Source: Leucobacter sp. UT-8R-CII-1-4 (lineage in GTDB: Bacteria; Actinomycetota; Actinomycetes; Actinomycetales; Microbacteriaceae). From it: DNA of 64,000 nt. The stretch is from NCBI RefSeq assembly GCF_030010235.1, contig NZ_JASCRS010000002.1:248001-312000 (forward strand), written 5' to 3'. The position numbers and the translations under genes were made by a program. The notes below the pieces were generated by a model. The model was not told where the DNA came from, did not search any database, and worked only from the letters and a program-made list of their open reading frames with translations. This document shows positions 8,848 to 57,122 of this stretch, one piece after another; positions within the stretch are counted from its first letter, which is position 1, and each line of letters begins with the position of its first letter.

Positions 8848-9207
8848 TTACGCGTACGCGCCTTCGTCTTCGGCGTCGAGCGCGCCAATGACCTCGGCGA
8901 TTCGGCCGAGCCGAATGCACTCACGCGGGGTGGATCCGCGCAAAAACTGGTTGGGCGAATCGAGCCAAATTGGCACAACTTTTTCGTGCATCACCGATTC
9001 GGCTCTGGCCACGATGTAGGCGAAATCCATAATTGCACGCGCAGATTCTGCCGATGGAATCTGCACGCCCTGCTTCCATCTGGTCACCTGCGAGGGTCGC
9101 ACACCAACCAGCTCAGCTAGCAGAGCACCATTGCCTGCGGCCTCAAGCAGCATACGAAAACCATCGCCAAAGGCGGAACCCGTTTGGAGTGGTGTCGTTG
9201 CGCTCAT
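8848..9207 (-). CDS. Xre/MbcA/ParS-type antitoxin
   Basis: Protein of 119 aa. The N-terminal half contains a helix-turn-helix (LLAELVGVRPSQVTRWKQG). The C-terminal half has the toxin-binding MbcA/ParS signature (WLDSPNQFLRGSTPRE) and ends EDEGAYA, matching the RES-Xre pairing. It neutralises the RES toxin and probably represses its own promoter. ATG 9207 is chosen over the GTG six bases upstream because the TAGAAT box is 6 nt before it. A palindrome lies directly upstream. Confidence 0.87.
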   Translation of the reverse strand: MSATTPLQTGSAFGDGFRMLLEAAGNGALLAELVGVRPSQVTRWKQGVQIPSAESARAIMDFAYIVARAESVMHEKVVPIWLDSPNQFLRGSTPRECIRLGRIAEVIGALDAEDEGAYA

Positions 9208-9213
9208 GCACAC

Positions 9214-9240
9214 ATTCTACGCGCAATCTGAGAATTGCGC
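9214..9240 (-). promoter_or_regulatory. Promoter and palindromic operator of the RES/Xre operon
   Basis: The -10 box TAGAAT (9214-9219) is 6 nt from the antitoxin ATG (leaderless pattern). Immediately upstream is an inverted repeat with 7-bp arms GCGCAAT/ATTGCGC around 6 nt (9221-9240), placed in the promoter spacer where an Xre-type antitoxin could block transcription. Confidence 0.55.
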
Positions 9241-9288
9241 AGCGGTGGATCGCCCGCGCTTACCCAAGTCAGAGCTTAGGCGCAGGGC

Positions 9289-10608
9289 TTAGGCGCGGCG
9301 TTGCAAAAGCACGGCGACTTCAAGGTGCGAAGTATGCGGGAACATATCGAAAACGCGCCCCTCGCGAACCACATAAGAAGGCATTACGGCCAGATCACGG
9401 GCAAGGCTTTCCGGATTGCAACTTGAGTACACCACGGTCGCGATCCCGCTGGTTTCGATCCAGCTCGCAAGTTCGGCGCCGATCCCCCGACGCGGCGGGT
9501 TCACTACAAGCATCTCTGGGAGCGAACCAGGCTGGGCCGAAAGCGCATATTCCGTGGCGTCGGCTGCAACAAATTTGGCATTCAGCCCCGCGTCACGGGC
9601 CGAACGTTTCGCAGAGTCAATTGCCGCCTCGCTCAACTCAACGCCGAGTACGCGCACCCCGTTAGCGCTCTTCTCCGAAGGCTGTGCGGCGAAAGCCTTG
9701 TCACTCATTGCCGCAGCGCAGTGCAGCGCGAATCCGCCGACACCGCAGTAGAGATCCCACAGGGAGCTCGGCTGAATGTCTGCGGCCCACGCTGAAACCT
9801 GCGAATACAGCTCGCGGGCTACCGCTGTGTTTGTCTGAAAGAAACTCTGCGGCATGAGGTGCAGCGTGAGCGGCTGAGATTCGAAGCCCAAGCGCATCGG
9901 CAGTGATGAGCCGAGCAGCATTTCTTCGCGCTCACCCTCAAGCACCGCCTTGTGCTCCGGCAATAGATTGACCGAGATCACGGCAGCGCTCGGCACGGCC
10001 GCACGCAAACGCGACAGCGCGGCACGGATCACGCCGAGTGCGTGCTCAGTGCGAACCACAAAACGCACCATGAGCGAGCTCACACCATCGACTTCTGGTG
10101 CCACCGTAATGTGCACGAATTTCAGTTCGCCGCGTCGGGCGGGTACGTCGTAGGGTTCGAGCCCAGTCGACTCAAGAAAATCAGCGATCGCGGGGATTAC
10201 TTCAGCAATCTCGGGGGCCTGAATGGCACACTCACGGAGATCAATGCCCTGGCGATCTGGCCCCAGAATGCCGAGGGTCACTTCACTCGCCGATCCACCG
10301 ACCACAAGCTTTACGCGGTTGCGAAAAGCGCGGTCGCCACCGGTGAAAGCAGGCAGCCATTTCGGCACCTGCGGCAGCAGCTCACGGCAATACTCGGTTT
10401 TGTCGTGCAACTGGGTCGAATATGGCGTTTCGATGAGCGTGCATGAGCGGCAGCGGTTTGCTTCGAAGTAGTGACAGCGCAAACGCGCCCCCACCCCGGG
10501 CAAATCCGCGCCAGCCGCAGGCACGACCGCGCCCGAGGAGCCAGAGCTTGGCAACGCCGCAGCAGACGCCGCACCGCCAAAGAGGGACGAATTTTCGCGA
10601 ACAGCCAT
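9289..10608 (-). CDS. rlmC: 23S rRNA (uracil-C5)-methyltransferase, RlmC/RlmD family
   Basis: Protein of 439 aa that methylates C5 of a 23S rRNA uridine with S-adenosylmethionine. Four cysteines for a [4Fe-4S] cluster are visible (C45, C53, C56, C127). The SAM-binding segment is LWDLYCGVGGFALH, followed by VNPPRRG and the catalytic cysteine motif SSCNP near residue 405. Length and lack of a TRAM domain favour RlmC (U747) over RlmD, though family paralogues are hard to separate by eye. The first 40 residues are Ala/Ser/Gly-rich and probably a non-conserved extension. It starts 8 bp after the ferritin-like gene and is probably co-transcribed with it. Confidence 0.85.
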   Translation of the reverse strand: MAVRENSSLFGGAASAAALPSSGSSGAVVPAAGADLPGVGARLRCHYFEANRCRSCTLIETPYSTQLHDKTEYCRELLPQVPKWLPAFTGGDRAFRNRVKLVVGGSASEVTLGILGPDRQGIDLRECAIQAPEIAEVIPAIADFLESTGLEPYDVPARRGELKFVHITVAPEVDGVSSLMVRFVVRTEHALGVIRAALSRLRAAVPSAAVISVNLLPEHKAVLEGEREEMLLGSSLPMRLGFESQPLTLHLMPQSFFQTNTAVARELYSQVSAWAADIQPSSLWDLYCGVGGFALHCAAAMSDKAFAAQPSEKSANGVRVLGVELSEAAIDSAKRSARDAGLNAKFVAADATEYALSAQPGSLPEMLVVNPPRRGIGAELASWIETSGIATVVYSSCNPESLARDLAVMPSYVVREGRVFDMFPHTSHLEVAVLLQRRA

Positions 10609-42961: not shown

Positions 42962-42991
42962 AAAAGCCCCCGGCGCAAACCGGGGGCTTTT
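42962..42991. terminator. Bidirectional terminator downstream of putA
   Basis: Stem AAAAGCCCCCGG (42962-42973) with CCGGGGGCTTTT (42980-42991), T/A runs on both sides. It overlaps the left attachment repeat by a few bases and was probably the original terminator of tRNA-Glu. The remainder of the 353-bp gap up to 43248 holds the tRNA fragment and the integrase arm-type repeats. Confidence 0.9.
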
Positions 42992-43042
42992 CTCACTGTG
43001 ACCCCAGCGGGATTCGAACCCGCGTTACCGCCGTGAGAGGGC
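42988..43042. other. Left attachment site (55-bp direct repeat, tRNA-Glu 3' fragment)
   Basis: These 55 bp are identical to 57039-57093. They contain the last 44 nt of tRNA-Glu (42999-43042), from the anticodon loop to the discriminator base, but the 5' part of the tRNA is absent. This marks the distal end of the integrated element. Confidence 0.93.
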
Positions 43043-43247: not shown

Positions 43248-43448
43248 ATGGACGATCTGATGAGCATCGACAAGGTCAGCGAAGAGTCCGGCTTCACCCG
43301 CCAGCGGCTCGCAAAGATGAGGTGGTTGGGCGGCGATGCGACTACGCCGTTCATCAAGTTGAGCCGCACCGATATTCGGTACAGTCGCGCCGACGTGGTC
43401 GAGTGGTTCGAGTCGCGGAAACTGACGAGCACCGCTGCCGCAATCTGA
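43248..43448 (+). CDS. Xis/AlpA-like helix-turn-helix protein
   Basis: Protein of 66 aa. SIDKVSEESGFTRQRLAKMR is a MerR/AlpA-type helix-turn-helix, then a wing and RADVVEWFESRK, the usual end of excisionase-type DNA-binding domains. It has a clear SD (AAAGGA) before ATG 43248. As the first gene inside the left attachment site it may direct excision together with the integrase at the other end. Alternatively it is an island regulator acting on the CCGACCATGATG motif, one copy of which precedes it. Confidence 0.7.
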   Translation: MDDLMSIDKVSEESGFTRQRLAKMRWLGGDATTPFIKLSRTDIRYSRADVVEWFESRKLTSTAAAI

Positions 43449-45946: not shown

Positions 45947-45977
45947 TTCAAAACCACGGACACCTTTGGAGGACACC

Positions 45978-46535
45978 ATGCTGATCGGATACGCACGAGT
46001 CTCAACGACCGAGCAGAACCTCGACCTCCAGACCGATGCGCTCCTCAGAGCGGGATGCGAGAAGGTATTCGTCGACCACGGCGTCAGTGGCACCAAGGCT
46101 CCGTTGAGCCGCCCGGAGTTCGCAGACCTCTGGAAGCAGCTGCGTGACGGGGATGTGCTTGTGATCTATCGTCTTGACCGCCTCGCGCGTAACGCTCGCT
46201 CTGCACTGGAGATTGTCGAAGGTCTCGACGAGAAGGGCGTCGCGCTGCGCTCGCTCAACGACGGCATCTCCACAGAAGGGGCGACCTCACGCTTGATCCT
46301 GACAATCATGGCAGCGGTGGCACAGCTTGAGGTCGAGATTCTGCGGGAGCGTACCCGTGACGGACTCGAAGCGGCTCGTGCACGCGGGCAGAAGCTCGGG
46401 CGGCGAGAAGCCCTGACAAACGAGCAGAAGGAGCACGCACGTTCGCTCCGCGCCGACGGCAAGTCGCTCCGCGAGATCGCGCGCCTCCTCGGTGTGGGGA
46501 AGACCACGATCGCGAAGGTCGTGGAACTACCGTGA
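45978..46535 (+). CDS. Serine recombinase (resolvase/invertase family)
   Basis: Protein of 185 aa. The catalytic serine is in the N-terminal IGYARVSTTEQNLDLQ, followed by YRLDRLARN and LERTRDGLEAAR-like helix E (LRERTRDGLEAARARGQKLG), and a C-terminal Hin-type HTH (REIARLLGVGKTTIAKV). Full length for Tn3 resolvase or Gin-type invertases. It has a strong SD (GGAGG). A res-like repeat cluster lies just upstream. No transposase is present, so it either resolves island multimers or is a relic of a transposon. It converges on the DUF4238 gene, 3 bp apart. Confidence 0.92.
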   Translation: MLIGYARVSTTEQNLDLQTDALLRAGCEKVFVDHGVSGTKAPLSRPEFADLWKQLRDGDVLVIYRLDRLARNARSALEIVEGLDEKGVALRSLNDGISTEGATSRLILTIMAAVAQLEVEILRERTRDGLEAARARGQKLGRREALTNEQKEHARSLRADGKSLREIARLLGVGKTTIAKVVELP

Positions 46536-46538
46536 CCG

Positions 46539-47558
46539 CTATTCTGCGGGCGAAGGTTGCAGAAAGATCGGCTCCCCGCTGAACTCGATGCGGTCGCCGA
46601 CGAACTGGAAACTGAGTGGATCAGGTTCCGGCAGATCGTCTGGGACGAACTTGGCGTCGTCAGGGTGGTGGTAAATCCATTCGCGGGCACCCCGCACTGT
46701 CATCTCATTGAAGAGCTTCTCGACGGCGGCGGTGCCCTGCATCGTCTGATCGAAATGACCAGCGCGTACACGCTCGACCGGAACAAGGTCTGCAAACACC
46801 ATCGGGTCGGACATCAGGATGCCGACTTTTCGCGACAAAGGGAACGTGATGCCCCACGCCGTCATGAAACCAGTCCCACCCCACGGGTCATCGTCGTCAT
46901 CGGGATGCGGGATGAGCCCGACTGGGGAGTCCGATACGATCAATGACCGTTGCTCGAACCGATGAACCGTCCAGGGTCGACCCGAGATGTACGGCAGAAG
47001 CTGCTCTGCCGTCATGACAATTTGCTTCACAAACTTGAGGTTCGTCATCGACACAAGGGTCGCCCCAGGCTCCATGACTCGATCCCAGAGTGCATCGACC
47101 TCCGCGTCTGTTGCCTCGCGTCCCTGACTCTCCGCGATTCTGCGACGCAACGCTGGTTTCCCACCCGCGCCGATCTGCATTCGTAGAGCTTCGCTCGCAA
47201 CGTGCTCCATGCTCCGCTTCATTTCCGGACCACGCGCGGCTTGGAGCGCAATGAAAAACGCGAGCCCGTTACGATCCTCTTCGGTCAACCGCGTTCGCCC
47301 TTCGATCACTTGGCGAATGATCCGGCTCGCGTCGCCTTCCACCTCGCTCAGTATCTTTTCGAATGCGTCAGGCGCTTGTCCGACAGCATCTACGGAGTAC
47401 AGGTGTTTCTTTGCCGCGACCGATTTCGTCGTTGCTGTGAAGGTTGTGTCGCCAGGCAGTCGGACAGCGCAAATCAAGTCTTTGTCGGTGGCGAACCCGC
47501 GCAGCAGCATCCTCGGCACAAAATGATGCCACTTTGCGGGGTTTTGCTCTGCGCTCAC
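46539..47558 (-). CDS. DUF4238 family protein
   Basis: Protein of 339 aa starting WHHFVPRMLLRGFATDKDLI after the first residues, the typical DUF4238 opening (HHxVPRxxLRxFA). The family is widespread near restriction and defence genes but its biochemistry is unknown; the conserved His and Arg could be catalytic. The start is GTG 47558, 10 bp after the HEPN-like gene, so it is the third gene of the restriction-modification operon. Acidic run DDDDDPWGG near residue 220. Confidence 0.8.
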   Translation of the reverse strand: MSAEQNPAKWHHFVPRMLLRGFATDKDLICAVRLPGDTTFTATTKSVAAKKHLYSVDAVGQAPDAFEKILSEVEGDASRIIRQVIEGRTRLTEEDRNGLAFFIALQAARGPEMKRSMEHVASEALRMQIGAGGKPALRRRIAESQGREATDAEVDALWDRVMEPGATLVSMTNLKFVKQIVMTAEQLLPYISGRPWTVHRFEQRSLIVSDSPVGLIPHPDDDDDPWGGTGFMTAWGITFPLSRKVGILMSDPMVFADLVPVERVRAGHFDQTMQGTAAVEKLFNEMTVRGAREWIYHHPDDAKFVPDDLPEPDPLSFQFVGDRIEFSGEPIFLQPSPAE

Positions 47559-47568
47559 GGTGTGCGAC

Positions 47569-48405
47569 CTAAGACCTGTGTAGAGGAAAGCGACGCCGCC
47601 GCCGAAGGTATGAATCTGGCATCATCCAGTCATCGAAGAACTCTGTGAATACCGGTAAGCCACGCCCATAGTCAAGGGTGCTGATTGTGTGCGACAGGAA
47701 CCGGATGGGTCGGATCGCGAGGAGCATCCCCTCGACGCCGATCCGTTTGTCGTCCTGCAACTGCGTCGTCATCGCTTCGAAAGAACTCAACCGGTCGCCG
47801 CTAAGTGAGACGTGATCGATGATTGCCAGCGGCACGTTCTCATCCATGTATCGAGCAAACCCGCGATGCATGGCGTCTTGCCGTTGTTGACCAGGGTTCA
47901 CGCGACGCTCCGGAACGTAAGTGCGAACGAGCGTCACCCACCGCGAGATCGGATCATCAATCGTTGCGCCGTCACCCTGCGTAAGACGGTTGAGGTTGTA
48001 GTAGCGATCCTTCTCAGCGAACTTGTTGAGAAAGCCGACGACCGCTTTCGACCCTGCATTTGCAGAAGGTGCGTCAACGAGGTCAACGCCATTTGCCGAC
48101 GCAACTGCCTCAACATCGCGGACGAGGCGCGTCAGATTGTGACGGTAGTTCTCCACTTCACCCGGCGGTGGGAAGCGACCCGTCCGTTGATACTGATCGC
48201 AAACAAGGATTAGCTTGCTTAGTCGTTCAATACCCTGAGACAGCCCGAAGAACGCCTCATACATGCGCCCTGGATCACCGAAGAAGGAGTGTCGGATCGA
48301 TGTCGTCCCTGCACCCAGTAGCGCCCGCGTCAAGTGCGCCTCCTGGATAATGGCACGCTGGATTGCTGTTTGGTCGGGGCGCGCTGAGGGCGTGGAGGGC
48401 GTCAT
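47569..48405 (-). CDS. HEPN-like protein coupled to the restriction enzyme
   Basis: Protein of 278 aa, no sure family match by eye. Residues about 50-100 read EAFFGLSQGIERLSKLILVC followed by a TGRFPPPGEVENYRHNLTRLV stretch, similar in pattern to HEPN proteins (helical, with a GHDL-like loop). RHNL resembles the usual H in that loop, but the RNase motif Rx4-6H is not clearly present. The C-terminal half is of unknown type and ends very basic. Its ATG overlaps the stop of the Type ISP gene by one base (TGATG), so translation is coupled. The obvious guess is a modulator or abortive effector for the restriction system. Confidence 0.5.
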   Translation of the reverse strand: MTPSTPSARPDQTAIQRAIIQEAHLTRALLGAGTTSIRHSFFGDPGRMYEAFFGLSQGIERLSKLILVCDQYQRTGRFPPPGEVENYRHNLTRLVRDVEAVASANGVDLVDAPSANAGSKAVVGFLNKFAEKDRYYNLNRLTQGDGATIDDPISRWVTLVRTYVPERRVNPGQQRQDAMHRGFARYMDENVPLAIIDHVSLSGDRLSSFEAMTTQLQDDKRIGVEGMLLAIRPIRFLSHTISTLDYGRGLPVFTEFFDDWMMPDSYLRRRRRFPLHRS

Positions 48406-51400
48406 CAACCCAAGACCTCCAGCGCAGGCAATCCCTTGACGATCTTGACGGTCTCGACGCTCACCGTGGTGATGCGCTTAATGAGGTCGAGGATGTAGCG
48501 GGGGTCGCCATGTTCGTCGCCCCACGCGTTCGGGTCGTTGATGATGCCGGACGCTTTGTCGGTCTTGACTTGGTAGCGCTCAACGATCCAGTCAAGCGCT
48601 GAGCGCGAGCCGAGCAGGTACTCGTGCGCCTCCTCCGGGATGCCAGTGATTGTGATGTCGTCGTTGTAGATGATGGTGGTCTTGTCATCCTTGCGACCAT
48701 CCTTCGCGTAGCGCATCTTCGTCACGCGCAACGAGGCGTTGGGCTTCACGTTCTCCGTCAGCGCATACGGCTCCACGGTCTCGTAGTTGAGGTGGAGATC
48801 AGAGAGCGCACGACCCGCCGCAACGAACTCCTTGAACGCCTTCACCTTAGGGATGCGGGGCAGCATTTTCATGAGGTCAGCTTCGAAATCGGCGCGGTAC
48901 TCCCGCGAATGGAGTAGCCCGTAGACATAGAAGAAGATGTCGTCCTTCGAAGTCTTCACACCGTATGCGTTTCGATAGTCGACCAGAATCTCATCTGTGA
49001 TGTTGTCAATCCGTTCGAATGCTGGGCTATCACCTTCATCGAAGATGTCGAGCGCGCGCGAGTCCACGACGACGGGGCGGTAGCTGAAGCGCGGAAAGAA
49101 CTGCCCCCCGCTCCCCGCTCCAGTCACATGCAAATCCGGGAGACAGTCGAGCATCAACACGGAGAACGGAACGGCAGACCCCGCGCCGACGTAATAGATT
49201 CCGATGTTCTCTGTATCTTGACTCGGAAACGCCTCGTTGAGCTTGTAGACCATGTCGTTGAGATCACGGTCGAAAACTACGTGCTGTTTCTGGAATGCTC
49301 GGTACATCGCAGTCCGCGAAGTAGACTGCCCGGTCGGTAGCTTTTCGCCCCGGTCTAGTCGTGTAGCATCAGCGCGATTCCAACTCATTTGCGTCGCATC
49401 TACGTTCCGTTTGAACGCTTGCCCCCGTCTAGCAGCGAGAGCCCGCCGATCGACTTCGCCGTTGAAGAACGCGACCATCGCGCTCACATTCTGCGACAGG
49501 TCTTTCTCGGAGAAGCTATAGACCCAAGAATCCCGAGCAGTCGCAAGTCCACGCCCGTAAGACTCAAATACCCGAGTCTCACGCGCCTTGGCTTTATCTT
49601 TCTCTCCGATCGGAGCGAACTTCGCGAAGTCATCGTTACGCTTGTTGATCCAGTCGCCTTCGGGAGTCGGATCGATTAGCTTCCAGGGAATGACACTCGC
49701 AGAGCCGAAGGCGCTGATCTTGCCGAGCTTCTGCGCCGTGTCGAGATAGTCGCCGATGTCATAGTAGTGAAGCTTGCCGGGGAGCTGTTGCTTCGGGTTC
49801 TTGACAAGTAGTGCAATCGCAATAGTCGCGCGAGACCCAGACCCAAAGACCTTTCCCCCTTCCTTGCGAGACTGCTCACCAGCCGTTCGCTGATTCCCTC
49901 GTAGGTTGAAGACGTAGACGCTCGTAAACTCGTCCATCAGGCTCAGACGAAGACCATCAGCGGTATTACCGTCGATGTACCCACCGTTGGAGACATATCC
50001 AACAATGCCGTTGTCCCCCACGCGATCGGAAGCCCAACGAATCGCACGTATGTAGGAGTCGTAGAGATTGTTCTTATTCGTCGCGGTCGAACGCGCTGCA
50101 TAGGAATCACGGATGTGTGAGTCGAGCGTCGGATACGAGTTGTTCTGGTTGTCGTCGTTCCCCGAAGTCTGCCCCTTCGAGTATGGCGGATTCCCGATCA
50201 CCACACGGATGTCGCGTTCCTTCTGCGCTACTACACGATCGTTGTTCGTCTTGAACACGCCCATGTCATCGAGTTCGTCATCGTCCTCAAACATTTGGAA
50301 GGTGTCGGTTAGGACGATGCCATCGAACGGCACGTAGTTGCCGCCCTGGAGTGAGTGGTAGGTCTCCTCGATGTTGATTGCAGCAACGTAATACGCGAGC
50401 AGCACGATCTCGTTCGCGTGAAGCTCATAGCGGTACTTCCGCGCGAGATCATGCGGCTTGATGAGCCCCGACTGGAGCAGGCGCACGATAAATGTCCCCG
50501 TCCCGGTGAACGGGTCGAGGATGTGCACACCTTCATCGGAGAGCGAGGTGTCGAACTCATCTTTCAGAATGTCGTTGACGCTATGGATGATGAAATCCAC
50601 GATCTCGTTCGGGGTATAGACGATGCCGAGCTTTTCACTTGTGCGAGAAAACGCCGTCGAGAAGAACTTCTCGTAAAGTTCCTTCACGATCGTTTGCTTC
50701 GCGCCGGGGTCGTCGATACCGGCAGCACGGGTGCGCACGCTTTCATAGAACTTCTCGAGCTTTACCGTCTCGGTGTCGAGATTCGCTTCGTCAAGAACCT
50801 TGACCATCTGGTTCATCACCTGCGAGACAGGGTTGTTCTCTGAGAACTCGTACCCCTCGAACAGTGCGTCGAACACGGGCTGCGTGATGAGATGCTGCGA
50901 AAGCATCTGCACCGCGTCGTTGTGAGAAATGTCGGGGTTCAGGTTGAGACGCAGCCCCTCGGTGAACGCCTCGAACTCTTCTCGAATTAGCTTGTTCTCA
51001 CCACCGATGAGCGCTTCGATGCGAGTGGTGTGAGCCTCAGCGATCGAGGCAACGTCCTTCGCCCAGTTCTCCCAATATCGTCGCTCGCCGACCTTCTGCA
51101 CGATCTTGGAGAGAATCGCATCGCGCCACGCCTCGATCTTCGAGAAGTCGAGCTGGAGCGCGGTGTTGATCTTGTCCGCACCCTTGGTTGCGGTGTCTTC
51201 TTCGTCTTCGCTCTTGCCGCCGCCAGCGCCAATGACATCGACCATAAGCCGGTTGGTCTTCTTGGTGAGGTCGATCTTGTTGACCTCGGCGTCGAAACGC
51301 TCGTCGTGCGCGCGGAGCGCCTGGAGCACCTGCCAGACCACTCGGTACTTATCGTTGTTGTTCAGAGCTTGATCGGGTTCAACATCGCTTGGGACTGCGA

Positions 51401-53225
51401 TCGGGAGAATGACGTACCCGAACTTCTTGCCCTTCATCTTCCGCATCACTCGACCAACGGACTGCACCACATCGACCACAGACTTACGCGGGTTCATGAA
51501 CATCACCGCGTCAAGGGCGGGAACGTCCACACCCTCAGACAGGCACTTTGCGTTCGAGAGAATACGCACGGTATTCTCCGGTGATGGCTGTTTCAGCCAG
51601 TCGATCTTCTCGTTGCGCACGAGCATTGACTGGGTGCCATCGACGTGTTGCGACTCTGTGTGAAGCAGCTTCGAGGTGTCTTCACCGGACGCTTCGAGGC
51701 GTTGGATTTCGCCCTCGATGACGTGCTGGAACGCGTCGGAGAGCCTGCGCGACGTGGCGATGTCCTTCGCGAACATGACTGCGCGCTGCATCGGGATGGG
51801 GTCATCCGCGTACTCGTCTTTGCGCACTGATCGTTTCGAGAGACCGTTCCAGGTGCCGACGATCTTGGCGGTGTCTTCCATCGCCAGTTCGTAGCCGTCC
51901 TGAGACATGAGCGATTGGAACTCACGCGCCACGAAGTCTTCGTCCACGGCGAGCACGAGAACCTTGTAATCGGTGAGCCGTCCCATGCTGACGGCTTCAC
52001 CGAACCCGAGGCGGTGGAACTCCGGACCGTAGACCGTCTCGTCGTCCATGTCGGCGAGCTTCGCGCCGATCTCGCCCGCCTTCTTGCGGGTGCCGTCCGA
52101 GAAGATGCGCGGGGTTGCCGTCATGTAGAGGCGCTTCGCGCCCTGCACGAAGGTCTGGTCGTGCACCTTCATGAAAGCGGATTCGTCTTCTTCCGCCATC
52201 GCCGCGCCGGTGGTTCTGTGCGCCTCGTCGCAGATGATGAGATCAAACTCCGGCAGCCCGAGACCCTGAGCCTTCGAGATGACCGCGAGCGACTGATAGG
52301 TCGAGAACACGACCGTCAGCTTGTTGGATGCGTCGCCCTGGTTGAACTGAGTGATGAGCGCGTTTGCGTTGGTCGTTGCCGGGAAGGCAAGGTCACGCAC
52401 CGGGATGTCTTCTTCGGTTCGACGCTTACCGACCGACACGTCAGAACACACAGCGAACGAACGCAGCGGCACCTCAGCCTGGATCGTCCACTCTTTGAGC
52501 GTCTGCGACAAGAGAGCGATCGAGGGAACGAGGAACAGCACCGTTCCGCCGAGCGGGACGGTCTTCTCAGCGAGGCGTAGCGATGTGAATGTCTTGCCGG
52601 TGCCGCACGCCATGATGAGCTTGCCCCGGTCATGTTCACCGAAGCCCTCGACCACGTTGGAGATCGCGGTCTCCTGGTAGTCGAACGGCGTCTTGTGAGC
52701 TTTCTTCGAAAGGCTCCCCGGCTCGCCCCAGACGAATTGTGACCAGTCGATCGACGATTCATCCAAGTCCTGCACGCGCAGACGCTCTACTGGGATCGTC
52801 TGGTCGGTGATCGCATCTTCGGCGTTCTTGCCCCAGGTGTCGGAGGTGGAAACGACCAGGCGTGATGTGAACTCGGGAACGTAGTCCACGGTCATCTTTC
52901 CCGAGGCGGAAAGGAACGAGTCCAGCATCCCCTTAGTCACCGTCGTCTTCGGCGCGAAGAACTTGCACTGGATCGCCGTGAGTTCACCGGTGTCGCGGCT
53001 GCGAGCCACCAAGTCGATACCCGTGTCGGGGCGGTTGCCGCGCTCCGGGTACTCAGACCAGCGCCACACCTCGTCGTAGAGCGCTTCGTACTGCGGCTCC
53101 GTCTTGAGGAACGCCTGCATCAGGCGCTCGAAGTGAGAGCCCTTGTCATACTCGTCGAAGGCAACCTTGCGGTATTGCGCAAGCACGTCGTGGATACTGC
53201 TGACACTGACATCGTTGTTAGTCAC
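48405..53225 (-). CDS. Type ISP-like single-chain restriction-modification enzyme
   Basis: Protein of 1606 aa combining all RM functions, like LlaGI and LlaBIII. Order: Mrr-like nuclease (Asp71 and QCK at 86-88 in DTGIDLVARS... AIQCKFF), SF2 translocase (Walker A CGTGKT, Lys211; DEAH 333-336; MTATPR), a helical coupler, N6-adenine methyltransferase (DPFTGTGTF from Asp904; NPPYS from Asn1012), and a C-terminal target-recognition domain. Such enzymes methylate one strand and cut after two head-on translocating enzymes meet. No separate S or M gene is needed. The start is uncertain: GTG 53225 is used, GTG 53252 is the alternative, though its AAGGAG is too close. First gene of an operon with the HEPN-like and DUF4238 genes. 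Confidence 0.88.
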   Translation of the reverse strand: MTNNDVSVSSIHDVLAQYRKVAFDEYDKGSHFERLMQAFLKTEPQYEALYDEVWRWSEYPERGNRPDTGIDLVARSRDTGELTAIQCKFFAPKTTVTKGMLDSFLSASGKMTVDYVPEFTSRLVVSTSDTWGKNAEDAITDQTIPVERLRVQDLDESSIDWSQFVWGEPGSLSKKAHKTPFDYQETAISNVVEGFGEHDRGKLIMACGTGKTFTSLRLAEKTVPLGGTVLFLVPSIALLSQTLKEWTIQAEVPLRSFAVCSDVSVGKRRTEEDIPVRDLAFPATTNANALITQFNQGDASNKLTVVFSTYQSLAVISKAQGLGLPEFDLIICDEAHRTTGAAMAEEDESAFMKVHDQTFVQGAKRLYMTATPRIFSDGTRKKAGEIGAKLADMDDETVYGPEFHRLGFGEAVSMGRLTDYKVLVLAVDEDFVAREFQSLMSQDGYELAMEDTAKIVGTWNGLSKRSVRKDEYADDPIPMQRAVMFAKDIATSRRLSDAFQHVIEGEIQRLEASGEDTSKLLHTESQHVDGTQSMLVRNEKIDWLKQPSPENTVRILSNAKCLSEGVDVPALDAVMFMNPRKSVVDVVQSVGRVMRKMKGKKFGYVILPIAVPSDVEPDQALNNNDKYRVVWQVLQALRAHDERFDAEVNKIDLTKKTNRLMVDVIGAGGGKSEDEEDTATKGADKINTALQLDFSKIEAWRDAILSKIVQKVGERRYWENWAKDVASIAEAHTTRIEALIGGENKLIREEFEAFTEGLRLNLNPDISHNDAVQMLSQHLITQPVFDALFEGYEFSENNPVSQVMNQMVKVLDEANLDTETVKLEKFYESVRTRAAGIDDPGAKQTIVKELYEKFFSTAFSRTSEKLGIVYTPNEIVDFIIHSVNDILKDEFDTSLSDEGVHILDPFTGTGTFIVRLLQSGLIKPHDLARKYRYELHANEIVLLAYYVAAINIEETYHSLQGGNYVPFDGIVLTDTFQMFEDDDELDDMGVFKTNNDRVVAQKERDIRVVIGNPPYSKGQTSGNDDNQNNSYPTLDSHIRDSYAARSTATNKNNLYDSYIRAIRWASDRVGDNGIVGYVSNGGYIDGNTADGLRLSLMDEFTSVYVFNLRGNQRTAGEQSRKEGGKVFGSGSRATIAIALLVKNPKQQLPGKLHYYDIGDYLDTAQKLGKISAFGSASVIPWKLIDPTPEGDWINKRNDDFAKFAPIGEKDKAKARETRVFESYGRGLATARDSWVYSFSEKDLSQNVSAMVAFFNGEVDRRALAARRGQAFKRNVDATQMSWNRADATRLDRGEKLPTGQSTSRTAMYRAFQKQHVVFDRDLNDMVYKLNEAFPSQDTENIGIYYVGAGSAVPFSVLMLDCLPDLHVTGAGSGGQFFPRFSYRPVVVDSRALDIFDEGDSPAFERIDNITDEILVDYRNAYGVKTSKDDIFFYVYGLLHSREYRADFEADLMKMLPRIPKVKAFKEFVAAGRALSDLHLNYETVEPYALTENVKPNASLRVTKMRYAKDGRKDDKTTIIYNDDITITGIPEEAHEYLLGSRSALDWIVERYQVKTDKASGIINDPNAWGDEHGDPRYILDLIKRITTVSVETVKIVKGLPALEVLG

Positions 53226-53332
53226 GGATGCACTCGCTTCAATTAGGGACACACTCCTTCCCAATCTATCGAGTGCCACCGTTGAACATAGAGAGCACAC
53301 GCACGCACCCGCCTCCGTGAGTCACACTTCGG

Positions 53333-54421: not shown

Positions 54422-56026
54422 GTGGCAGCAAAAAACGGCATCGAGCCGTACGACACGAAAAAAGGCACGCGCTACAAAGCGCGGTACTGGAAACCCGATG
54501 GCAAGCAGGGGTCGAAGGGCAGTTTTGAGACCCGCGCGGCAGCGAAAGCGTTCCAGCTTGAGATGGAGGTCAAGCGTGCACAAGGCACGTTCGTTGACCC
54601 CGCTCACGGTCGGGTCACGGTCGCATCGGTTGCTGAGGAGTGGTTGGCTACGCGCGAGGCTGACCCCGCCACTAAGCGCTCCACGTATGCCCGCGTGCGC
54701 GGTATCGTCCGCACGCGCATCATCCCCGATCTCGGTGAGCACCGCATCGGTTCCGTCACGCGGGGAGATGTGAACGAGTGGATTCGCACCCTCACCGGAG
54801 AGGCGGAGACAGTGCGCAAGCAGGTGAGCGTTCTGCGGGGGATTTTCGAGTTCGCAATCGAGCACAACCGCATCCACACCAACCCTGCCAGCAAGGTCAA
54901 GCAGCCACGGGTTCCCAAAAAACAGAAACGCTACCTGACAGACGAGCAGATTGCGACGCTCTACGAAATCGTGGGTCGGACAAACAACGGCGAGGCGCAC
55001 GGCTACGACCTCATCGTCGCTCTTCTCGCGTACACCGGGCTGCGCTGGAGCGAGCTTGCCGGACTCCGGATTGGGGATGTTGACCTCAAGACTCGACGGC
55101 TCTCCATCGCGCACACGGTCGTTCTCGTCGATGGGGTTCCCACTGAGGGTGTACCCAAGTCGTACTCCACGCGCTCGGTTCCGATTCCAGACATCATCGC
55201 TGCGCTCGTGCGCACCCATATCGTCCGCCGCCGGGAGGAGCTTGCGGTTGATGCGAAACGTCTCAAAGATCAGCTTGCGCTTCTTGACGCGAAAAGCGCC
55301 GAACTCGAACGTGTCCGTGCGCGAGGAGTGGTGCTTGCGGCTCGGCTCGACGAGGTGCGTGAACGGAATGCCACCCTGACCGCTCGTATCGCCGGACTTG
55401 AAGCCGACCGTGACGCGCGTGCGGTTGCCGGAATGCCGACTGAGCCCGTAGATGTCCGCATCGCCGCCGCCGCAAAAACATTGAGCAAGCTCCCTCGCAT
55501 CGAGGGACTGGAGAAGAACGTCGCCCTCATCCCGGAGCGCATTGCCCGCCTAGAGAAACAGATCGCGAAAGCGCCGCGCCAGGCAGAGATTCTGCGTGAT
55601 GCTCTGCGGGTGCTGGAACAAGAACCCCTGTTCGTCGGCGTGCGCACGCGGTCGTGGTTGCGCAACGCGAGTTTCCGCACGGGCTGGCTTACCCCGGCTG
55701 TCGCGGAGATGGACGCGCTCGCCGCTAAAGCCGCCACCGAGAACGATGACATCCCACCAAAGCCGCTGGGCGACGTAAAGCCGCACGAATTGCGGCACAC
55801 CTATGCAAGCCTCGCAATCTCCGAGGGCGCGAACGTGAAGGCGCTCCAACGTGCGCTCGGACACGAGAAAGCCTCAGTCACATTGGACGTGTATGCCGAC
55901 CTTTTTGAGGACGACCTGGACGACATAGCGATTCGTCTCGATGCCAGTATCCGCGCCATGTCGGAAGAATCCGACCTATCCACGGGAAATCCGATTCCCT
56001 ACTACGACACCATCTGGGACGTGTGA
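54422..56026 (+). CDS. int: Tyrosine site-specific integrase with coiled-coil insertion
   Basis: Protein of 534 aa. An AP2-like arm-binding N-terminus (about 1-55), a SAM-like core-binding domain (65-155), then the catalytic domain with Arg208 (TGLRWSEL), Lys246, HELRH (His455, Arg458), His481 (ALGHEKASV) and nucleophile Tyr491. Ordinary relatives are about 400 aa. Here about 130 extra residues (about 270-400), almost all predicted coiled coil (REELAVDAKRLKDQLALLDA; ERVRARGVVLAARLDEV), separate Arg208 from HELRH. It recombines the tRNA-Glu attachment sites. GTG 54422 has an SD (AAAGGA). Confidence 0.92.
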   Translation: MAAKNGIEPYDTKKGTRYKARYWKPDGKQGSKGSFETRAAAKAFQLEMEVKRAQGTFVDPAHGRVTVASVAEEWLATREADPATKRSTYARVRGIVRTRIIPDLGEHRIGSVTRGDVNEWIRTLTGEAETVRKQVSVLRGIFEFAIEHNRIHTNPASKVKQPRVPKKQKRYLTDEQIATLYEIVGRTNNGEAHGYDLIVALLAYTGLRWSELAGLRIGDVDLKTRRLSIAHTVVLVDGVPTEGVPKSYSTRSVPIPDIIAALVRTHIVRRREELAVDAKRLKDQLALLDAKSAELERVRARGVVLAARLDEVRERNATLTARIAGLEADRDARAVAGMPTEPVDVRIAAAAKTLSKLPRIEGLEKNVALIPERIARLEKQIAKAPRQAEILRDALRVLEQEPLFVGVRTRSWLRNASFRTGWLTPAVAEMDALAAKAATENDDIPPKPLGDVKPHELRHTYASLAISEGANVKALQRALGHEKASVTLDVYADLFEDDLDDIAIRLDASIRAMSEESDLSTGNPIPYYDTIWDV

Positions 56027-56998: not shown

Positions 56999-57040
56999 AA
57001 AGCCCCCGATCCCTGTGTTTCAAAGGGATTCGGGGGCTTT
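56999..57040. terminator. Terminator behind tRNA-Glu, supplied by the island
   Basis: AAAGCCCCCGATCCCT (56999-57014) pairs with AGGGATTCGGGGGCTTT (57024-57040), with one bulged base and T runs on both strands. It now terminates tRNA-Glu in place of the original hairpin at 42962. Confidence 0.85.
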
Positions 57041-57093
57041 TTCTCACTGTGACCCCAGCGGGATTCGAACCCGCGTTACCGCCGTGAGAGGGC
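57039..57093. other. Right attachment site (55-bp direct repeat within tRNA-Glu)
   Basis: Identical to 42988-43042. It covers the tRNA from the anticodon loop to the 3' end plus 11 bp. Because integration restores the tRNA, the intact gene lies at this end next to the integrase. Confidence 0.93.
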
Positions 57094-57122
57094 GGCGTAC
57101 TAGGCCGCTATACGATGGGGCC
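57050..57122 (-). tRNA. tRNA-Glu (anticodon CUC)
   Basis: 73-nt cloverleaf on the minus strand. The acceptor GGCCCCA pairs with TGGGGTC (one G-T), the anticodon stem CCGCC/GGCGG encloses CTCTCAC with anticodon CTC, and the T arm is GCGGGTTCGAATCCCGC. CCA is not encoded. The 3' half is shared with the left attachment site, so the present 3' end came in with the island. Confidence 0.95.

Follow-up and report, generated by a model that had tools for sequence, protein, structure and literature searches.

A Type ISP restriction-modification enzyme followed by two closely spaced candidate defence genes in a putative integrative element of Leucobacter sp. UT-8R-CII-1-4

According to the published descriptions, Type ISP restriction-modification (R-M) enzymes such as LlaGI and LlaBIII work as single polypeptides (PMC3874165, PMC4666363); they carry a PD-QXK nuclease motif (PMC3874165), methylate one strand only, and cleave when two enzymes coming from unmodified sites in head-to-head orientation collide (PMC4666363, PMC3874165), and newly replicated host DNA is spared because one site of each head-to-head pair stays methylated (PMC4666363). 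A second-line gene linked to R-M has been described elsewhere: in the PrrC model an RNase is kept inactive by the R-M complex for as long as no phage attacks the R-M system, which model has been proposed to extend to many HEPN genes located in R-M operons (PMC3710099, PMC3506569, PMC2610378), and a further hypothesis, covering Types I and III, envisages R-M systems with replaceable toxin genes (PMC3506569). Here we consider the window, a stretch of 64,000 nucleotides (contig positions 248001-312000) of the 3.0-Mb genome of Leucobacter sp. UT-8R-CII-1-4, in which the gene of a Type ISP enzyme is followed by those of a 278-amino-acid (aa) protein of an unnamed family and of a DUF4238 protein. 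The reading that we prefer, with a probability of about one half, is that these two genes would form an exchangeable second line of defence, carried as cargo behind a Type ISP enzyme that is self-sufficient, which combination, together with an unnamed family borne by plasmids, would be a modest variant on the known theme of an R-M operon with a second-line gene.

All three genes lie on the minus strand and are spaced as the preliminary description of this DNA had stated: the 278-aa gene begins with an ATG (48405) whose A is also the last base of the ISP stop codon (TGATG, a one-base overlap), and the DUF4238 gene starts with GTG at 47558, 10 bp past the stop of the 278-aa gene, which ends at 47569. 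The stretch 47569-53225 on which that description centred covered the ISP and 278-aa genes, but left out both the DUF4238 gene at 46539-47558 and the island. The ISP reading frame may start either at GTG 53300, giving 1631 aa, or at the in-frame GTG 53225, giving the single nuclease-translocase-methyltransferase chain of 1606 aa that had been announced and that the sequence bears out. The Pfam domains follow one another in the order (residues) Mrr_cat_2 66-194, ResIII 204-398, Helicase_C 547-620, ISP_coupler 742-864, N6_Mtase 871-1054 and Type_ISP_C 1244-1606; the relatives in the PDB are LlaBIII (4xqk), over residues 36-1629, and LlaGI (5ffj), with its best stretch at 200-1408; and the motifs are all intact, namely PD-QxK (AIQCK), Walker A, DEAH, motif VI, DPFTGTGTF and NPPY. 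With LlaGI and LlaBIII the window enzyme shares the single-chain order of PD-QxK nuclease, superfamily 2 (SF2) translocase, coupler, methyltransferase and recognition domain, from which enzymes it differs in having two closely spaced genes behind it; the best PADLOC models were those of Type IIG and Type I enzyme-methyltransferases. Domain order, the extended LlaBIII match and the intact motifs uphold the Type ISP assignment made beforehand, and judged by its sequence the enzyme is an ordinary new member of the class. The accompanying statement that such enzymes act alone is in line with their published description as single polypeptides (PMC3874165, PMC4666363). Among papers judged by title and abstract opening, in a search that left most subscription journals outside, we recognised none devoted to accessory genes in operons of Type ISP, and the relevant parts of a 2026 paper that names Type ISP (PMC13335696) treat counts and motifs only.

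Table 1. Features of the window (positions of the window) and genes found downstream of ISP genes at other loci (locus labels, with positions where available).
Feature	Location	Strand	Evidence or remark
DUF4238 protein, 339 aa, GTG start	46539..47558	-	PF14022 E=6e-42; PADLOC DUF4238-Pers E=6e-7
278-aa protein, unnamed family	47569..48405	-	ATG overlaps ISP stop; E61, K65, H90, R135 invariant in 14/14
Type ISP restriction-modification enzyme	48405..53300	-	Pfam domain order, LlaBIII/LlaGI PDB matches, intact motifs
Type ISP C-terminal specificity domain	48483..49571	-	PF18135 E=9e-98
N6-adenine methyltransferase domain (DPFTGTGTF, NPPY)	50139..50690	-	N6_Mtase E=4e-8 and motifs
ISP coupler domain	50709..51077	-	PF22240 E=5e-50
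SF2 translocase, first half (Walker A, DEAH)	52107..52691	-	ResIII E=2.5e-25; Helicase_C next (547-620), E=2e-7
Mrr-type nuclease domain, DTGID ... AIQCK = PD-QxK site	52719..53105	-	Mrr_cat_2 E=4e-44, motif alignment
Small open reading frame, 164 aa	53333..53827	-	ends 32 bp before ISP start; 4-base overlap with preceding frame; no PHROG
Small open reading frame, 144 aa	53824..54258	-	overlaps the 164-aa frame; PHROG match only E=0.23
Tyrosine integrase of the island	54422..56026	+	Phage_integrase E=2e-17; phrog_1 integrase E=4e-69
Attachment repeat over tRNA-Glu 3' part and bases behind	57033..57093	-	61-nucleotide direct repeat; tRNA-Glu gene 57049-57122
Other attachment repeat, at the opposite island end	42982..43042	-	61-nucleotide direct repeat
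66-aa excisionase-like protein	43248..43448	+	phrog_66 excisionase and transcriptional regulator E=4e-4
Serine recombinase (resolvase)	45966..46535	+	PF00239 E=5e-43; convergent with DUF4238 gene, 3 bp apart
Downstream AAA_13	L045 (=L071), L049		starts -17 and +9 bp from ISP stop; same family as the window
Downstream AAA_15 ATPases, OLD kind	L054, L082, L124, L140		TOPRIM reaches cut-off only in L124, L140
Downstream Mrr	L075, L088		
Downstream ApeA_NTD1	L101		
Downstream Cap4-type nuclease	L104, 14924-16186		+21 bp from ISP
Downstream GmrSD	L145, 14920-16614		+5 bp from ISP
Downstream Piwi-domain protein	L147, 14884-16899		-4 bp from ISP
Downstream AAA_21/SMC-like ATPase	L144		least sure defence assignment
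Other downstream: CoiA-like	L046, L114		weak in L114
Other downstream: DNA glycosylase-like	L076, L097		
Other downstream: DUF4357	L100, L113		
Other downstream: DUF4942, EcsC, NA37			
Other downstream: GHKL ATPases	L051, L110		weak
Other downstream: HipA_C	L095		below cut-off
Other downstream: DEDDh exonuclease	L058		matches PADLOC PDC-S48
Other downstream: ordinary enzymes	L044		
Other downstream: transposase, pentapeptide protein, DUF222			
Other downstream: several proteins			without a family, or with spurious families only

ISP homologues (E up to 1e-50) occurred in 23 of the 299 genomes of the same family, the window's own included, and the other 22 genomes provided 23 loci with longer flanks (L044-L063, L067-L069), a few of which hold ISP fragments only; species genomes, scanned with an alignment of ISP sequences, added the best 80 of at least 567 confirmed stretches (L071-L150), one locus, L071, being the same place as L045 and so common to both sets. 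At neither these 80 nor the 23 same-family loci did the 278-aa profile or a single-sequence DUF4238 search find a partner, which absence is not absolute because several contigs end near the ISP gene and a single-sequence search can miss distant DUF4238 proteins; nor was either partner found within the 4-kb flanks of 14 plasmid ISP loci, hand-picked from 60 of 165 records. The reverse comparison gave a similar picture. Relatives of the 278-aa protein were present in 5 of the 299 family genomes and 6 of 396 genomes of the order (the own genome counted in both), and at 16 loci of that family tblastn found neither an ISP nor a DUF4238 relative, seven of these loci having short flanks and nine several kb on both sides, except for L064 with 4.9 kb on one side; the closest relative, 53% identical (L003/L064), is among them. 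DUF4238 genes were present in 18 of the 299 family genomes (own included), and among 20 DUF4238 loci, one of them below the cut-off, only that of the window had an ISP or 278-aa gene within 1.5 kb, the 19 others having none. The defined three-part functional module that the preliminary description had proposed does not withstand these comparisons: the count of the two downstream families behind ISP homologues, by which it was to be judged, came to 0, an outcome that largely goes against it, and we reject the three genes as a conserved system, since neither partner was found at the other ISP loci examined, nor an ISP gene at the other loci of the partner families. A conserved linkage of effector and R-M, as in PrrC, was likewise not found for the 278-aa partner at the 80, 23 and 14 ISP loci.

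What does vary from locus to locus is the gene behind the enzyme. Six same-family ISP relatives of 62-73% identity differ in their downstream gene (L044-L049), which is an AAA_13 protein in L045 and L049, a CoiA-like nuclease in L046, a pentapeptide-repeat protein in L048 and a 109-aa open reading frame (ORF) in L044, with nothing close in L047. We chose 39 of the loci at which a sizeable ORF follows ISP on the same strand, and scanned 40 proteins with Pfam; most of the genes start within 120 bp of ISP, those of L044, L051 and L057 lying further off. At 13 of the 39 loci the downstream gene was of a defence type by our reading of the Pfam names (Table 1), the AAA_13 proteins, which we take to be of the RloC/PrrC kind, matching PDC-S06 first and PrrC weakly in PADLOC. 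The suggestion is of a 3' exchange site behind ISP genes, which would share with the hypothesis of replaceable toxins the feature that related R-M genes are accompanied by differing genes of toxin or nuclease type, whereas that hypothesis covers Types I and III and the case of Type ISP is statistically only suggestive (PMC3506569). As an observation in its own right, AAA_13 behind ISP in two genomes of the window's family parallels PrrC linked to a Type Ic R-M system.

Several counts weigh against cargo of this kind. The nearest sizeable upstream ORFs, chosen by length so that some may be spurious, comprised at 20 loci 3 defence types (Abi_2, SIR2-STAND, and HEPN with nucleotidyltransferase), not counting the non-specific endonuclease of L146; the downstream excess is not significant either when nearly the same loci are compared (8/19 versus 3/20, p=0.08, the downstream gene of L108 being unscanned) or when all are (13/39 versus 3/20, p=0.22). 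Coupling behind ISP is at the background rate: an ORF of 100 aa or more on the same strand began within 30 bp of the ISP stop at 35 of the 86 usable loci (those in which the C-terminus was reached with at least 700 bases beyond it, L045 excluded as duplicate), in comparison with 106 of 296 control ORFs, that is, the remaining ORFs of 400 codons or more at these loci (Fisher p=0.45). On the plasmids, whose gene table is incomplete, a gene overlapped ISP at 4 of the 14 loci and no annotated same-strand gene abutted it at the other 10, from which we take the cargo to be optional; the plasmid loci and the 35/86 versus 106/296 comparison together make the coupling both optional and ordinary. An unusual tightness behind ISP is accordingly dismissed, and the tight coupling that had been offered as a sign of functional partnership, though real, occurs at the rate of the background. 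The four overlapping plasmid genes encode a hypothetical protein near CBASS-type genes, a hypothetical protein before an exonuclease, tcmP, and an ATP-binding protein. On one Curtobacterium plasmid (L195) the ISP gene, an overlapping gene for a 183-aa hypothetical protein, SAVED (on the opposite strand), a DncV-like cyclase and ThiF-family genes place ISP beside a CBASS-like cluster.

Under the reading as exchangeable cargo, the Type ISP enzyme would be the first line, through one-strand adenine methylation, ATP-driven translocation and cleavage when two enzymes meet; the 278-aa and DUF4238 genes, probably co-transcribed with it, would be the operon-linked second line, and ISP and both partners would have been delivered as one island into tRNA-Glu. 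The 278-aa protein would arrest or kill cells under infection, perhaps by acting as a HEPN RNase of the AbiV type, and each partner probably works without ISP, because both families live without it elsewhere. Should exchangeable second-line genes regularly close ISP operons, the coupling of immunity and suicide proposed for Types I and III would reach the simplest ATP-dependent restriction enzymes, and new effectors could be sought in the gene downstream of ISP, among them a conserved unnamed family on many enterobacterial conjugative plasmids.

In the DUF4238 protein, PF14022 covers the whole domain (profile positions 2-281 of 281), and the PADLOC model DUF4238-Pers, which we take to be the published hotspot system, matches weakly and in the N-terminal third only. 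A PDB sequence search with this protein found nothing at E up to 1, and its AlphaFold2 model, with a mean predicted local distance difference test (pLDDT) of 42.6, was not usable. Another DUF4238 protein, from a hotspot of P2-like phages, by itself gives strong resistance to T7 (PMC9122126); the window protein shares with this single-gene defence the Pfam family name, but differs in its weak DUF4238-Pers match and in standing behind an R-M gene. By analogy with that relative it may act alone against phage, and of the earlier proposal that the partners are components of defence there survives that they are plausibly defensive, given the block of T7 by the DUF4238 relative (PMC9122126), but not that they form a fixed system. 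The same tested activity (PMC9122126) argues against the possibility, to us a rather unlikely one, that both genes are passengers which ended up behind ISP by accident within the island and are transcribed by read-through only, with no functional link, since at least the DUF4238 gene fits a defence island; that possibility is nonetheless in keeping with the background rate of coupling, with the failure to find the partners at other ISP loci, and with the adjoining serine recombinase, one being present within 4 kb at 5 of the 16 loci of the 278-aa family, which may point to a mobility of that family's own.

The 278-aa protein has no family in Pfam (no match at E up to 1), PADLOC, NCBIfam or PHROGs, and a PDB sequence search with a 6-row profile of its family found nothing at E up to 1. 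Across 14 aligned sequences of the family, two close pairs included, E23, G34, E61, K65, H90, R135 and W157 (numbering of the 279-residue ORF) are invariant. The main HEPN motif is Rx4-6H, an Ex3[KR] motif having also been noted (Anantharaman 2013, PMC3710099), and in AbiV and AF0298-like proteins the His of the main motif is absent, another conserved His lying N-terminal to that motif (PMC3710099). Among our 14 sequences Rx4-6H holds no family-conserved position, several being without any, and the AbiV-type variant is found, with E61xxxK65, H90 and R135 invariant in 14/14: the family shares with AbiV and HEPN-T the Ex3K, a later conserved His and then a conserved Arg in the absence of Rx4-6H (PMC3710099), from which proteins it differs in having neither Pfam nor profile-profile support and in possessing an additional C-terminal half, the helix positions for this comparison coming only from a no-confidence model. 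With hhalign, the family against four AbiV sequences scored 14.9, which 3 of 60 shuffled decoys exceeded and which compares with 13.5-13.8 for unrelated controls; this alignment, of the same weak score, sets E61-K65 on the Glu and Lys of the AbiV E-E-x-x-x/E..K motif, and the score against HEPN-T, 10.4, was inside the decoy range. Ten relatives, searched against Pfam with a limit of E=10, had insignificant matches only, one of them to PF05168 at E=0.059. The structure prediction that had been proposed for 47569-48405 as a check for a HEPN fold yielded with AlphaFold2 (2-sequence input) an all-helical model, but a mean pLDDT of 35.7 deprives it of confidence and of use. The HEPN-like label of the preliminary description retains the AbiV-type variant motif and lacks Rx4-6H and any profile or fold support; to call the protein a HEPN is a reasonable guess and not a result.

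Another reading is a guard of the PrrC kind, in which the 278-aa protein would be a latent toxin silenced by bound ISP and freed when a phage blocks restriction, as with PrrC and EcoprrI. The one-base overlap is compatible with coupled synthesis, the AbiV-like Ex3K/His/Arg set is invariant in 14/14, RloC/PrrC-like AAA_13 proteins stand directly behind two other ISP genes (L045, L049), and in print at least 16 HEPN clades are reported as linked to R-M operons and the analogy with PrrC has been proposed (PMC3710099, PMC3506569); nevertheless we consider this guard improbable, in that the HEPN fold is only putative, the 278-aa partner was found at no other ISP locus examined, and its relatives, one of them 53% identical, have no detectable ISP nearby, so that silencing by a linked ISP is not general in the family. 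With EcoprrI-PrrC, a Type Ic R-M with an anticodon nuclease, the window has in common an R-M gene with a linked candidate second-line effector; but a single-chain ISP enzyme here takes the place of HsdMSR, the partner, which is no ABC-HEPN protein, has relatives without R-M nearby, and its silencing by ISP is only hypothetical. Because the life of both partner families without ISP argues against obligatory silencing by that enzyme, we favour additive, exchangeable cargo over the guard as well as over passengers.

Distinctly improbable, taken as a whole, is a more far-reaching proposal, according to which the 278-aa family would be an undescribed abortive-infection family with an AbiV-like E-K-H-R HEPN site, carried on enterobacterial conjugative plasmids, a 3' exchange site of ISP would swap it with RloC-like, OLD-like, Mrr, GmrSD, Cap4 and Piwi genes, and ISP would be the sensor whose failure fires the effector behind it. 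A partner acting as regulator or host protector, an idea of the preliminary description in which restriction would be held back once the island has entered a host without methylation, has very little chance of being right, for although newly entered islands face that problem in principle, the head-to-head rule of ISP enzymes itself limits self-cleavage of replicated DNA (PMC4666363), the fully unmethylated host not being covered by it, and the partners lie downstream, match no DNA-binding family in the libraries searched and did not turn up at any other ISP locus examined.

The three genes lie in what reads as a 14-kb integrative element at tRNA-Glu, the island location that had been supposed for them being supported by the tyrosine integrase and by 61-nucleotide direct repeats, 97% identical, one of which overlies the 3' part of the tRNA-Glu gene (Table 1). 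Among 41 congeneric genomes (own included) no listed match spans the junction with both long flanks, as a clean empty tRNA-Glu site would; in some of them the tRNA-Glu match runs a few tens of bases past the junction (contig 402 of G953, query 279-393 and 56-141), a weak indication. Two small ORFs, of 144 and 164 aa, located between the integrase and ISP, may begin the same operon; as parts of a conserved system they were discarded, having no significant relative in the loci compared. Promoter and terminator scans gave nothing above chance worth reporting.

Beyond the order, a protein search found relatives of the 278-aa protein in 133 plasmid records, for the most part those of conjugative plasmids from Klebsiella, Escherichia and Salmonella, and megablast with the version of the gene on pE001 matched 232 plasmid records, the match extending over at least 80% of its length in 55. 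In pE001 and pEGKP3.5 (L009, L010) the gene, at 8992-9813, encodes a distant relative that is annotated as hypothetical and has no ISP with it; pE001 is typed IncX1, IncX3, and the two plasmids examined in detail IncX1. A serine recombinase lies within 4 kb at 5 of the 16 loci of the 278-aa family (L064, L009, L010, L011, L017), as it does in the window, and within about 5 kb, by a crude count, at 6 of the 80 ISP loci. Searches of viral contigs with the queries P0002, P0003, A5 and A4 gave no match; a relative of the 278-aa gene in its plasmid version (L175) and a distant relative of DUF4238 (L176), one of each, do occur on such contigs.

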